Source: Paractinoplanes ovalisporus (GTDB lineage: Bacteria; Actinomycetota; Actinomycetes; Mycobacteriales; Micromonosporaceae). Taken from it: a stretch of 64,000 nucleotides of DNA. The position numbers and the translations under genes were made by a program. The notes under the pieces were generated by a model. It saw only the letters and a list, made by a program, of their open reading frames with translations, was not told the DNA's origin and ran no database searches. The stretch is taken from assembly GCF_016834655.1 (NCBI RefSeq), contig NZ_JAENHP010000027.1, forward strand, positions 62,001 through 126,000. Reading direction: 5' to 3'. Positions 57,295 through 62,320 of this stretch are shown here, piece after piece; positions within the stretch are counted from its first letter, which is position 1, and each line of letters begins with the position of its first letter.

Positions 57295-58464
57295 ATGCCG
57301 CCGACCCCTCGGATGGCGTGGCTCGACGCGCTGCGGGCCGTGGCCGTGCTCCTCGTCCTCTATGCGCACGCGAGCCGCTACGTGCTCACCGACGTTCGCG
57401 CGGTGACGGCCGAGTGGCTGCACGCCGGTCCGGCCGGGGTCATGCTGTTTTTCCTGGTCAGCGGCTACATCATCCCGGCCTCGCTGGAGCGGCACGGCAA
57501 CCTGCGCCGGTTCTGGATCGGCCGGGCGGGCCGGCTGCTCCCGCTCTATGCGGTGGTCACCGTCGCCGTCGTGCTGCTCGGCTTCTACCGTCCGGCCGAT
57601 CCGGCGACGGCCGCGGTGGCCCACGCGACCATGGTTCCGTTCCTGCTCGGTGAGCCGTTGGCGACGCCGGTGTTCTGGACGCTCGCCTTCGAGATGGTGT
57701 TCTATCTGCTGGTCACGGCCTTGTTCGCCGTACGGCTCCAGCGCGCCGACGCGGTCATGGCCGTGCTGCTGACGATCTGCGCGGTGCTGACCGCCCCGCT
57801 GGCTCCGAACGCGGTGCGCACGCCGTACGCCGCACTGGTGCTCGTGGCCGGGCTGGCGCTCGTGCTGAGCGGGCGCCGGTGGGCGGTGACCGCGGGTGGC
57901 CTGACCCTGGGCGGGCTGGCGCTGACCCTGGTGATCGCGGGCGGCCAACCCGCGCACGCCTGGGACGGTCTGCTGGTGGTGGCCGTGATGTTCGCCGGCA
58001 CCACGATCTATCGCGCCGACACCGGGCAGACCGGGTGGTGGACGGTGGCCGTGGTGGCACCCGTCGTGGCGGCCGGGCTGCTGGCCAACTGGTTCGCCGA
58101 ACTCGTGTCGCTCGACGCTCTGACCCCACGCTACATGGCCCGGTCGGTCATCACGCTGCTGGTGTTCGCGGGGGCGTTCGCCGTGGGCATGCTGACCCGC
58201 CGGTGGCGTACGCCGTCGTGGCTGGCGACCCTCGGAGTGATCAGCTACTCCGTCTACCTCACCCACTACCTGCTGTTGCTCGTGATGCGGCCACTGCTCG
58301 TGCATGACGCGCTCGTCATCGCGTACGGGGGAACGGTTTTGATCGTCTCGTGGGTGACGCACCGTTATGTCGAGCTGCCCGGTCAGAGGTGGGCGCGCCG
58401 AATGTCGGACGTATGGGATGAACCGGGCCGGGTACAGCAGACCCATGCACCGGTACGGGGATGA
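57295..58464 (+). CDS. OafA/acyltransferase-3 family membrane protein
   Basis: The start is ATG 57295 (a GTG at 57277 is the alternative); the product has about 389 residues. About ten membrane helices match acyltransferase family 3: MAWLDALRAVAVLLVLYAHASRY with the active-site His in the first segment, then GVMLFFLVSGYIIPASLER and GRLLPLY. They add acetyl or other acyl groups to surface sugars or lipids. The stop overlaps the next gene's start by 20 bp. It might act on the glycans of this cell, but no direct link is seen. Confidence 0.92.
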   Translation: MPPTPRMAWLDALRAVAVLLVLYAHASRYVLTDVRAVTAEWLHAGPAGVMLFFLVSGYIIPASLERHGNLRRFWIGRAGRLLPLYAVVTVAVVLLGFYRPADPATAAVAHATMVPFLLGEPLATPVFWTLAFEMVFYLLVTALFAVRLQRADAVMAVLLTICAVLTAPLAPNAVRTPYAALVLVAGLALVLSGRRWAVTAGGLTLGGLALTLVIAGGQPAHAWDGLLVVAVMFAGTTIYRADTGQTGWWTVAVVAPVVAAGLLANWFAELVSLDALTPRYMARSVITLLVFAGAFAVGMLTRRWRTPSWLATLGVISYSVYLTHYLLLLVMRPLLVHDALVIAYGGTVLIVSWVTHRYVELPGQRWARRMSDVWDEPGRVQQTHAPVRG

Positions 58465-59953
58465 GGTGGCGGCGATCGCCCGGCCCCTGCACGACGAGGG
58501 GGACCTGGACGTCCTGATCGACCGGGTGGGCGACGCCCGCGTCGTGATGATCGGCGAGGCCAGCCACGGGACGCACGAGTACTACACGTGGCGGGCGGCT
58601 CTGACCCGGCGCCTGATCGCCGAGCGTGGCTTCTCGTTCGTGGCGGTCGAGGGCGACTGGCCCGACTGCGAACGGGTCAACGCGGCCGTCCGCGGGGGAG
58701 ACGCCACTCCGATGGAGGCGCTGGTCGGTTATGAGCGCTGGCCGACCTGGATGTGGGCCAACGAGGAGGTCGTCGACTTCGCCGAGTGGTTGCGCTCCTA
58801 CAACGCCGCTTTGCCCGCCGACGCTTCGCGTCGCGCTTCCGGATCTGGCTCCTCCGCCTTCACCGTCTCCTCTTCCCTTTCTCCAACCTCCTCTTCCGCG
58901 ACTTCCCTTTCCCCAACTTCCTCTTCCGCGACTTCCCTTTCCCCAACTTCCTCTTCCGCGACTTCCCTTTCCCCAACTTCCTCTTCCGCGACTTTCCTTT
59001 CTCCAACTTCCTCTTCCGCGCCTTCCCCTTCCACTACTTCCTCCTCCACCTCCTTCCGCGCGGACAAATCCGACAAAATTGGATTTCATGGGCTCGACGT
59101 CTATTCGATGTGGGAGTCGTTGCGCGAAGTGCTCGTGTGGCTGCGCGAGAACGACCCCGACCAGGTCGAGCCGGCGCTGCACGCGTATCACTGCCTGGCC
59201 TCGTACTCGGAGGACCCGCAGTCGTACGCGTGGGCGACCAAGTTCCTGCGGGCGAGTTGCGAGGACGACGTCGTACGGATGCTGATCGACCTGCGCGGAC
59301 GTGACCTCGCGGTGTGGCAGAACGCCGAGGTCGTGGCGGGCGCCGAGCACTACTACCGGGCGATGGTCCACGGCGGCCCGCACTCGTGGAACGTGCGCGA
59401 CCGGCACATGGACGCGACGCTGGCCCGGCTGCTCGACCACTACGGCGAGGGCTCGAAGGCCGTGGTGTGGGCGCACAACACCCACGTCGGCGACGCGAAC
59501 GCGACCGACCAGGCGACGCTGGGCGAGGTGACGATCGGGTCGCTGGCCCGCGAACGGTTCGGCGCCGACCAGGTGGTGCTGGTCGGCCTCGGCAGTCATC
59601 GCGGCTCGGTGATCGCCGGCCGGACGTGGGGCGCGCCGATGGCCGAGTTGCGGGTGCCGCCCGGGCGGCCCGGTTCGCTCGAGGACATCCTGCATGCGAC
59701 CGCCCCGAAGCAGGCGTTGTTCGTTTTCCCGCCGCTCGCCGAGCGTCCCGACCTGCTGGTCGACGAGGTCGCGCACCGGGCGATCGGCGTCGTCTACCGG
59801 CCCGAGCAGGAGCGGTTGGGCAACTACGTGCCGTCGGTGCTGGGCGACCGGTACGACGCGTTCCTCTGGTTCGACGAAACACGCGCGCTGCGGCCGTTGC
59901 ATCCGCTGCACATCGACACGCACGAGTTCGAGACGTACCCGACCGGCGTCTGA
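58445..59953 (+). CDS. Erythromycin esterase-family protein with inserted repeat loop
   Basis: The start is ATG 58445; the product has 502 residues. The family motifs are intact: MIGEASHGTHEYYTWR (catalytic His), VAVEGDWPDCERVN, KIGFHGLDVYSMWESL, VVWAHNTHVGDA and NYVPSVLGDRYDAFLWFDE. Family members open macrolide lactones or act on other small substrates; resistance cannot be assumed. Between LRSYNAALP (residue 120) and GFHGLD (211) relatives have under ten residues. Here about 80 residues of SLSPTSSSAT repeats are inserted (residues 127-208). The frame is kept. The acyltransferase gene overlaps upstream. The gene ends at the edge of the long repeat field. Confidence 0.93.
   Translation: MHRYGDEVAAIARPLHDEGDLDVLIDRVGDARVVMIGEASHGTHEYYTWRAALTRRLIAERGFSFVAVEGDWPDCERVNAAVRGGDATPMEALVGYERWPTWMWANEEVVDFAEWLRSYNAALPADASRRASGSGSSAFTVSSSLSPTSSSATSLSPTSSSATSLSPTSSSATSLSPTSSSATFLSPTSSSAPSPSTTSSSTSFRADKSDKIGFHGLDVYSMWESLREVLVWLRENDPDQVEPALHAYHCLASYSEDPQSYAWATKFLRASCEDDVVRMLIDLRGRDLAVWQNAEVVAGAEHYYRAMVHGGPHSWNVRDRHMDATLARLLDHYGEGSKAVVWAHNTHVGDANATDQATLGEVTIGSLARERFGADQVVLVGLGSHRGSVIAGRTWGAPMAELRVPPGRPGSLEDILHATAPKQALFVFPPLAERPDLLVDEVAHRAIGVVYRPEQERLGNYVPSVLGDRYDAFLWFDETRALRPLHPLHIDTHEFETYPTGV
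58874..59023. repeat. Five 30-bp repeats inside the erythromycin esterase-family gene
   Basis: Five units of 30 bp, beginning TCCCTTTCTCCAACCTCC, encode SLSPTSSSAT and are nearly identical. The coding strand is almost entirely C and T over this run. Confidence 0.95.
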
Positions 59954-60600
59954 ATCTCGCTCATCCACATCCTGCTGCGCGTTCGCTCGTTCGCTCGTTC
60001 GCTCGTTCGCTCGTTCGCTCGTTCGCGTTCGCTCGTTCGCGCCGCGCAGGTTGACGTAGAGCTGGCCGTCGGGGAAGCGGCGTTCGCTCGTCCGCTCGTC
60101 CAGTTGGCCTGCGTTCGCTCGTCCGCGCGTCCAGCCGGTCTGCGTGCTTGCTGGTTTGCACGTTTGCTCGTTCGCGTGTCCAGCTGGCCTGCGTGCTTGC
60201 GCGTTTGCGCGTTTGCGCGTTCGCGTGTCCAGCTGGCCTGCGCGTTCGCTCGTCCGCGCGTCCAGCCGGTCTGCGTGCTTGCTGGTTTGCGCGTTTACTC
60301 GTTCGCGCGTCCAGCTGGCCTGCGCGTTTGGTCGTTTGCGCGTTTGCTCGTTCGCGCGCTCAGGCGGTCTGCGCGTTCGCGCGTTCGCTCGTTTGGGCGT
60401 TCGCGCGTCCAGCCGGTCTGCGCGTTCGCTGGTTTGCGCGTTGCGCGTTCGCGCGTCCAGCTGGTCTGCGTACTTGCTGGTTTGCGCGTTTGCGCGTCCA
60501 GCCGGTCTGCGCGTTTGGTCGTTTGCACGCTTGCTCGTTCGCGCGTTCGGCTCTCTGCGCGTTTAGCTGCTCGCTCGCTTGGTCGGTCTTCCATGCTGAT
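59954..60600. repeat. Non-coding repeat field (8-bp units, then a dispersed CCAGCYGGYCTGCG core)
   Basis: After the esterase-family stop, five perfect 8-bp TTCGCTCG units (59982-60021) lead into a 500-bp stretch. There, about ten copies of a core close to CGTCCAGCYGGYCTGCG are spaced irregularly by CGTTTGCGCGTTTGCTCG-type filler. Long frames are open across it, but they encode only repetitive Arg/Ala/Val/Leu text without a start signal, so I call no gene here apart from a 14-codon fossil at 60040. Confidence 0.85.
60040..60082 (-). pseudogene. Fossil of an NB-ARC/AfsR-type regulator (14 codons)
   Basis: On the minus strand these 43 bp read RRFPDGQLYVNLRG, a hallmark segment that follows the P-loop in SARP/AfsR-like NB-ARC regulators. 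Repeat sequence starts directly on both sides, and no other part of such a gene is present. It looks like a fragment left by decay or captured by repeat growth. Confidence 0.7.
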
Positions 60601-60603
60601 CGC

Positions 60604-60651
60604 TTGACAAGCTTGGGTGCGGGCGTATTCTCAACCTATCAGTTTATAAAC
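60604..60651 (+). promoter_or_regulatory. Promoter and palindromic operator of the ArsR-SRPBCC operon
   Basis: TTGACA (60604-60609) is followed after 16 bp by TATTCT (60626-60631). A perfect 10-bp palindrome, GTTTATAAAC (60642-60651), sits just after the expected start of transcription and 12 bp before the ATG. This is a good place for ArsR autorepression. Confidence 0.7.
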
Positions 60652-60663
60652 CAGGTGGTTGTC

Positions 60664-61005
60664 ATGCAGGATTCGATCGACGGTGTCTTCGCTGCTCTCG
60701 CCGACCCGACCCGGCGCGCGATCCTCGATCGCCTCGCCTCGGGCGACGCGACTGCGGGCGAGCTCGCCGCCGGCTTCCCCATCAGCGCCCAGGCCGTCTC
60801 CAAACACCTGAACGTGCTCGAGGCGGCGGGCCTGATCGTCCGCACCCGTGAGGCGCAGCGGCGCTGGTGCCGCATCGTGCCGGCGCAGGTGCGCGCGGTC
60901 TCCGTGTGGGCCGAGCAATACCGGCGGCTGTGGGAGGAGCGGTACGACGCACTCGACGACTACCTGGGCCGGCTCCAGGAAACCCCGACCGAGGAGGACC
61001 AGTGA
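60664..61005 (+). CDS. ArsR-family winged-helix repressor
   Basis: The start is ATG 60664; the product has 113 residues. The fold is clear: IDGVFAALADPTRRAILDRLASGDATAGELAAGFPISAQAVSKHLNVLEAAGLI in outline. The metal-binding ELCVCDL motif of arsenic sensors is absent, so it is of the non-metal kind that often pairs with SRPBCC genes (SdpR-like). It overlaps the SRPBCC gene by GTGA. The palindrome before its ATG is probably its own operator. Confidence 0.93.
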   Translation: MQDSIDGVFAALADPTRRAILDRLASGDATAGELAAGFPISAQAVSKHLNVLEAAGLIVRTREAQRRWCRIVPAQVRAVSVWAEQYRRLWEERYDALDDYLGRLQETPTEEDQ

Positions 61006-61460
61006 CCATCAACGTCCAGACCCCGACCGACACCACCCTCGTCATGAGCCGCACGTTCGCCGCGCCGCGCGACCTCGTGTTCGCCTGCCACACCCAGCCC
61101 GAGCACCTCCGTCACTGGTGGGGCCGGGGCAACCCGCTCGACGTCGAGATCGACTTCCGGGTCGGCGGCAAGTGGCGCTTCGTCGAGCACGCGGACGGCC
61201 AGGAGCACGCGTTCCGGGGCGAGATCAAGGCGATCGACGCGCCGAACAGCTTCTCGTGGACGTTCGAATACGAGCCGATGGCCGGCCACATCCTCACCGA
61301 GCAGTACGTGTTCACCGAGGAGGGCGGCAAGACCACGGTCACGTCGTCGTCCACGTTCGACAGCAAGGAAGACCGCGACGGCATGATCCAGTCCGGCATG
61401 GAGGCCGGCGCCGAACAGTCCTACGCGGCCCTGGACGACTACCTCGCCAAGCTGGCTTGA
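61002..61460 (+). CDS. SRPBCC (AHSA1-like) protein
   Basis: The start is GTG 61002, overlapping the ArsR stop (GTGA), with GAGGAGG just upstream; the product has 152 residues. MSRTFAAPRDLVFACHTQPEHLRHWWG begins the START-like fold in outline, and VDFRVGGKWRF-type and SFSWTFEYEPM strands follow. Its hydrophobic pocket can bind a small ligand; AHSA1 relatives may also assist Hsp90. The role is unknown. A perfect hairpin follows 34 bp after the stop. Confidence 0.93.
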   Translation: MTINVQTPTDTTLVMSRTFAAPRDLVFACHTQPEHLRHWWGRGNPLDVEIDFRVGGKWRFVEHADGQEHAFRGEIKAIDAPNSFSWTFEYEPMAGHILTEQYVFTEEGGKTTVTSSSTFDSKEDRDGMIQSGMEAGAEQSYAALDDYLAKLA

Positions 61461-61493
61461 GAAGCCCGCCGGTGACCTGAGGCGCCCCGCCGG

Positions 61494-61520
61494 TGAGCGG
61501 CCGCGTTGTGCGGCCGCTCA
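61494..61520 (+). terminator. Perfect 11-bp hairpin after the SRPBCC gene
   Basis: TGAGCGGCCGC pairs exactly with GCGGCCGCTCA around GTTGT, 34 bp past the stop. There is no T-run. Confidence 0.8.
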
Positions 61521-61612
61521 TCGACGTCGTAACTCGTTGCGGCTGCTCGCTTTTCCGTCGCATTGCTGCCGCTCACCTCGCAGTTGCGGCTTCGCTTCCC
61601 GTCGCGTTGCTG

Positions 61613-61894
61613 CCGCTCGCGTCGCTGTCACACTGTTGTGACTGTTGCAGTTTGACGCGCCGATGTTTGCCTTGATGTCACATTGGTGCGGCTGTTTGCG
61701 TCGCGTCGGGTCGCGTCGCGTCGGGTCGCGTCGCTTCGGGTCGGGCCGCTTCGGGTCGCGTCGGGTCGCGACGGGTCGCGTCGCGTCGGGTCGCGTCGCG
61801 TCGGGGTCGGGCCGCGTCGGGTCGGGCCGCGTCGGGTCGGGCCGCGTCGGGTCGCGTCGCAGCCGCTCGCGCTGCCGTCACACCGTTGCGACTG
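61613..61894. repeat. GTCGC/GGGTC repeat block between two 32-bp direct repeats
   Basis: A block of (GTCGCGTCGG)-like repeats (about 61697-61860) lies between two copies of a 32-bp sequence starting CCGCTCGC (61613-61644 and 61863-61894; 27 of 32 bases alike). The rest of the gap 61461-61906 holds the SRPBCC terminator and looser repeats of GTTGCTGCCGCTC. No gene is supported. Confidence 0.85.
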
Positions 61895-61906
61895 GTCGCA
61901 TGACTG

Positions 61907-62320
61907 TCAGGTGGCTCGGATCAGCGCCACCACGGGGATTGTCCGGGTGACCTTGGCCTGGTAGTCGTCCCAGCCCGGGTTGTCGGCCACCGCCCGCTGC
62001 CAGGCCTCGTCGCGCTCGTCGGCGGGCAAGGGTTCGGCGAGGGCTTCGTACGTGTGGGAACCGGTTTCGATCGTCACCCGCGGATTCGCCCGCACATTGT
62101 GGAACCAGTCCGGGTTGCCCGGAGCGCCACCGGCCGAGGCGATGACCAGAATGCGGTCGGGCCCGTCCCGCAGGAAACCCAGCGGCGTGGTGTGCGCGGC
62201 GCCGGAGCGGGCGCCCCGGGTCGTGAGAAGGATGAGTTCGCTGCCCTCGAACATGCCGCCCACACGGCCCTGATTGGCTCGGAACTCGTCGATGATCTGC
62301 TGGTTGAAAGGGTTGGGCAT
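61907..62320 (-). CDS. Ddn-like F420-dependent nitroreductase-family protein
   Basis: I chose ATG 62320 (AGAGAG upstream), giving 137 residues; longer readings upstream look non-coding. MFEGSELILLTTRGARSGAAHTTPLG and ILVIASAGGAPGNPDWFHNVRANPRVTIET match the deazaflavin-dependent nitroreductase family typified by Ddn. These proteins use reduced coenzyme F420 to reduce quinones or other substrates at the membrane. F420 use fits an actinomycete host. The start faces away from a 311-bp gap. Confidence 0.9.
   Translation of the reverse strand: MPNPFNQQIIDEFRANQGRVGGMFEGSELILLTTRGARSGAAHTTPLGFLRDGPDRILVIASAGGAPGNPDWFHNVRANPRVTIETGSHTYEALAEPLPADERDEAWQRAVADNPGWDDYQAKVTRTIPVVALIRAT

Follow-up and report, generated by a model that had tools for sequence, protein, structure and literature searches.

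A 41-bp NB-ARC fragment in an apparently young intergenic repeat field of Paractinoplanes ovalisporus: probable filler DNA from an unlinked gene of the same genome

The window analysed here is a stretch of 64,000 nucleotides (G000:C19:62001-126000) from the genome of Paractinoplanes ovalisporus, which comprises 11.42 Mb in 62 contigs. Between a gene of the erythromycin esterase family and an ArsR-family regulator gene it carries a field of short repeats of about 640 bp, and enclosed in these repeats is a short piece which reads as part of an NB-ARC protein on the minus strand. The features of the locus are the following:

58367..59953, plus strand: erythromycin-esterase-family gene (ORF; Pfam PF05139, E 2.5e-111), whose stop codon abuts the repeat field
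58808..59080, plus strand: repeat insertion inside the esterase reading frame; a short linker stands in its place in 10/10 relatives
59954..60597, no strand: repeat field with the fragment, between the esterase stop and the ArsR promoter region; absent in 10/10 same-genus genomes
59980..60040, no strand: array of the 8-bp unit CGTTCGCT, left of the fragment (TRF, 7.9 copies)
60041..60081, minus strand: putatively captured fragment with the NB-ARC motif RFPDGQLYVNLRG; 40/41 bases identical to G000:C11:960554-960594
60080..60569, no strand: overlapping arrays, mainly of 31/33/41/49/82/131-bp units, right of the fragment (TRF)
60664..61005, plus strand: ArsR-family regulator downstream of the field (Pfam PF12840/PF01022); upstream region conserved in relatives (alignment)
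61454..61905, no strand: repeat field downstream of an AHSA1-family gene, right edge uncertain; the spacers of the relatives differ

The initial annotation of this DNA had described a regulator motif of 14 codons at about 60040..60082, flanked by short repeats. The motif RRFPDGQLYVNLRG is indeed present on the minus strand of window positions 60041-60082, and short repeats adjoin on both sides, namely the 8-bp array (59980-60040) and the 31/49/131-bp units from 60080 onward. The NB-ARC character of the read was borne out, its length was not: the extent common to the window and the best-matching gene of the own genome, located on contig C11, is RFPDGQLYVNLRG with 13 codons (41 bp), and the first R of the window motif is completed from field sequence (RRFPDG in the window versus GRFPDG in the C11 gene). 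The fragment represents a piece of the RFPDGQLYVNLRG stretch of AfsR/SARP-type regulators with BTAD-NB-ARC-TPR architecture. Unlike these regulators it is, with its 41 bp, too short to encode a domain, and it is probably without function.

Searching the own genome with a 40-mer of the fragment and up to three mismatches yielded four places, the window included. One of them, C11:960554-960593, has a single mismatch, those on C7 and C13 have three each; all three lie inside or beside NB-ARC matches, and the backward-read 40-mer, which served as control, gave no place in the own genome. BLAST of the whole field against the own genome likewise led to C11 (41 bp, 98%, among the best 40 of 88 candidates scored). 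The place is part of an intact ORF of 916 aa (G000:C11:959614-962364) on another contig than the window, for which a domain search gave BTAD, NB-ARC and TPR matches and which we take to be an AfsR/SARP-type regulator gene. The copy in a live regulator by which the initial annotation would have recognised capture does exist, near-identical (40/41) rather than identical. A chance match was ruled out by the empty backward control and by the expected number of exact 36-base matches in the own genome, which is about 2e-12 under a simple independent-base model.

The motif is widespread among NB-ARC genes. At least 35 NB-ARC matches were found in the own genome (best 150 of 328 candidates scored), and 26 stretches in a wider contig collection covering about 85,000 species contain the exact 36-mer; all of them translate as the motif in an NB-ARC-like context. 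Two of these stretches reach 41 exact bases, and one, L161 from Nonomuraea, spans exactly the 41 bases of the window. Within 67 genomes of the genus the exact 40-mer is confined to the window, copies with at most two mismatches occur in 13 genomes (own included; 15 places altogether), and a single mismatch to the 40-mer was found at four places in the 66 other genomes. A match to some NB-ARC gene, on which the first reading depended, is thus provided by C11, C7 and C13 as well as by the 26/26 exact stretches. Since the best-scoring genus relative of the C11 gene is only 69% identical (four candidates scored per genome), the single mismatch between fragment and gene cannot be polarised. On the basis of these matches the C11 gene is the likely, although not the proven, source of the fragment.

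In a base-by-base alignment of window and C11 the homology ends sharply on both sides of the 41 bp and does not extend beyond this core, as it would in a decayed gene. When exactly 60041-60081 are left out, 23 bases of the resulting 24-base junction agree with the repeat at 60015, so that the insert interrupts the array without visible loss or addition; the repeats blur the ends at which microhomology or small additions would show. Two properties of filler insertions are present, namely the match to a distant place of the own genome (40/41 to C11:960554-960594) and a surrounding sequence which is restored without the insert (23/24 bases). The near-identical copy in a live gene, the sharp ends and the restored repeat support the earlier suggestion that the fragment was copied from elsewhere.

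For the comparison with relatives a query comprising esterase, field and ArsR gene was used, some part of which matched in 60 of the 67 genomes. All counts refer to the ten best-matching relatives, in which both flanks are situated on one locus. Field and fragment are missing in all ten, with left break points at window positions 59953-59966 and right ones at 60591-60625. A junction alignment of these ten together with G003 and G052 revealed that a short spacer separates the esterase stop codon from the conserved ArsR upstream region. The distance between the flanking genes is larger in G015 (about 1.8 kb), G006 and G009 (both about 4.4-4.9 kb); in these spacers, which were partly covered, no 18-base motif core was detected, and the listed open frames contain no DGQL. 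Among the relatives compared, none has the field without the fragment. The flanking esterase and ArsR genes differ by 10-18% from those of the ten relatives. The absence from 10/10 relatives suggests that this lineage most likely acquired the field of about 640 bp, fragment included, that the fragment would represent a capture and that the site had never housed an NB-ARC gene.

Next to the field the window has two further repeat insertions. The insertion in the esterase frame amounts to net 255 bp compared to G001, corresponding to 85 codons, and is in frame. For the field at 61454-61905 both flanks were seen in six of the ten relatives (right break points 61812-61917), which carry other spacers instead: 7 bp in G007, 14 in G029, none in G048, 65 in G001, 206 in G042 and 768 in G002. 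Fields of at least 150 bp occur at 7.7 and 14.1 per 100 kb in stretches of the own genome (G000), at 8.5 in G001 and at 9.5 and 3.0 in two stretches of G029. With this similar density in the sampled relatives G001 and G029, it was ruled out that repeat fields are peculiar to the own genome. Non-repetitive islands listed in these relatives number six in G029 and zero in G001.

Contig C11 (1.2 Mb) and the window together contain 132 fields of at least 120 bp, 91 of them mostly outside a crude coding mask. These 91 fields comprise 25 non-repetitive islands (18 according to an earlier island definition), and 33 islands (25 + 8) were searched against the whole genome, with the best 40 of 235, 148 and 64 candidates scored. 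Among these best-scored candidates two of the 33 islands, one of which was preselected, had another copy reaching 40 bp and 95%; the eight additional islands had no such copy in the own genome, and the remaining ones gave weaker or shorter own-genome matches only. The second capture is C11:2630-2677 (L100, G000:C11:1-20000) with a length of 48 bp, 46 of which are identical to C11:1271576-1271623, inside an ORF of 197 aa that was read as GNAT-like without a domain search. The field around it (about C11:2582-2994) is cleanly absent from G041, and in G007 and G048 it is missing along with an adjoining small gene; the other five loci compared cover the left flank only.

Two local passes complemented this search. 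In the first, 182 fields from C11 (1.2 Mb) and the window were compared with those stretches and other loci, which resulted in 31 hits in five fields; those reaching 40 bp and 95% led to the known C11 gene and, on C6, to a simple CGTTCGCT array, and the reversed control gave no hits. The wider pass, in which 297 fields were compared with 2.05 Mb of the genome (18%), delivered eight hits in seven fields, two of them of at least 40 bp and 95% and identical with the two captures, while the reversed control yielded three hits of 29-31 bp. For a comparison with controls the thresholds 28 bp/90%, 35 bp/93% and 40 bp/95% were applied. Hits numbered 7, 2 and 2 for all 297 fields, 5, 2 and 2 for the 147 mostly non-coding fields, 9-11, 0-2 and 0 for random non-field segments (three samples of 297) and 57, 7 and 4 for 483 other intergenic runs. 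At 28 bp/90% there is no excess in fields (5/147 versus 57/483), and the longest match class alone points to fields. Calculated per base, the 40 bp/95% class has two matches in 29.1 kb of mostly non-coding fields against four in 263.9 kb of other intergenic sequence, an enrichment which is not significant (Poisson P 0.07, one case preselected). By alignment reading, these four long intergenic matches are a gene-end copy, an ABC-transporter stretch, which counted as intergenic through the crude mask, and a hairpin pair counted twice.

Some other duplicated stretches were observed in the course of these comparisons. A 51-bp copy with 50 identical bases, which covers a gene end and its downstream stretch outside any field, links C22:431418-431468 and G000:C22:23984-24034. 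The positions G000:C11:1059502-1059545 and C22:83919-83962 have a hairpin-like sequence of 44 bp in common, intergenic according to the crude mask, and in a repeat field at G000:C22:51164-51237 a palindrome-like stretch matches its own other strand.

With two of 33 islands, frequent capture in fields was not found; captures in fields are rare. The initial annotation had also regarded the fragment as a marker for how such fields arise. The second capture speaks for this use, whereas two islands out of 33, one of them preselected, and the non-significant enrichment speak against it, and we retain the idea tentatively.

We consider it probable that the fragment is filler DNA from the unlinked C11 gene, taken up via Ku/LigD end joining in a young repeat field. 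The lineage would have gained the intergenic field after its split from the sampled relatives, and a double-strand break would then have arisen in the array. A 41-bp piece of the C11 gene (G000:C11:959614-962364) would have been copied or ligated into this break, which Ku/LigD end joining may have healed while taking in short endogenous DNA. We infer the C11 gene as source, the involvement of a break and end joining as the route; filler DNA at a healed break is consistent with the sharp ends, the length of 41-48 bp, the endogenous source and the position within a repeat array. For Ku, three matches over the cut-off are present in the own genome; for the LigD polymerase there are four, of which three exceed the curated cut-off. 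Moreover, 3 of 89 bases distinguish the two captures from their sources, which is below the 10-18% divergence of the flanking genes and fits captures younger than the split from the relatives.

Replication template switching instead of end joining, by which the arrays would have been built and the fragment inserted, is a possible but doubtful route. Nested arrays of mixed unit length fit slippage and template switching, but a jump to a distant contig to copy 41 bp is untypical of short-range template switching. We regard it as rather unlikely that the fragment was captured not from the C11 gene but from a foreign or since-lost NB-ARC gene, such as incoming DNA or a deleted paralog. Such a donor has to be reckoned with because conservation of the motif extends from the residues to the codons, and the foreign gene in L161 (41/41) and the four one-mismatch places in other genus genomes speak in its favor. 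Hits of this kind, however, turned up in a search space of 66 other genomes and about 85,000 species, and for the second capture, too, the own genome supplies the best match. A rough estimate, derived from the four one-mismatch places in 66 genomes with an assumed 35 NB-ARC genes each, puts at about 6% the chance that some unrelated gene out of the 35 NB-ARC matches of the own genome would fit equally well.

According to the other alternative of the initial annotation, a resident NB-ARC gene was destroyed in place by repeat growth. The reading frame kept on the minus strand of the fragment would agree with a remnant of this kind, but the short spacer in 10/10 relatives, the homology limited to 41 bp with sharp ends, the repeat restored by removing these 41 bp and the lack of the 18-base motif core in the partly covered spacers of G015, G006 and G009 render it very improbable. 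A longer NB-ARC remnant at the site, which decay would have left in a relative, was found in none of the ten compared, and decay of a resident gene was discarded on account of synteny and the restored repeat. That the fragment was kept for a function, for instance as antisense to NB-ARC transcripts, is hardly conceivable, since the 36 exact bases common to fragment and one gene are countered by a second capture from an unrelated gene and by the lineage-specific nature of the fields.

Filler DNA at a healed break, as preferred here, has parallels in other organisms. In Streptomyces ambofaciens, an actinobacterium with several NHEJ-like genes, PMC5869714 describes short own-genome pieces at repair points: after I-SceI breaks three KanS clones carried own-genome inserts of 42, 83 and 30 bp, and for one of them the match was the 5' end of a transposase gene lying in the terminal inverted repeats (PMC5869714). 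In S. ambofaciens the break was an induced one, with two of the three sources near it (PMC5869714), whereas the fragment described here is natural, lies in a repeat field, and its repair route is deduced. Eukaryotic templated insertions or filler DNA are likewise short copies of distant loci at breaks, as far as described in the accessible parts of PMC11724301 and PMC2567098; they involve other polymerases and ligases, whereas the present case concerns a bacterium and is known from sequence alone. Our literature search on intergenic tandem repeats in Actinoplanes found no paper. Judging by its match and its junction, the fragment is most likely a naturally arisen endogenous filler insertion, a repair product whose kind is already known.

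The bacterial filler insertions which we found in print stem from induced breaks. The question arises whether break repair has built the repeat fields in the large genomes of actinobacteria, for which two cases are too few to make a claim. Tentatively, the fast-turnover intergenic repeat fields of the genus might be break-prone sites which grow via error-prone repair and occasionally keep pieces of 40-50 bp from distant genes, an idea of which we are far from certain. A natural case with an identifiable source, a re-closing repeat and a second case would open a way to reading past repair events from genome sequence. If the idea is true, the fields would constitute a natural archive of past end joining in wild actinobacteria, which could be dated against the source genes.
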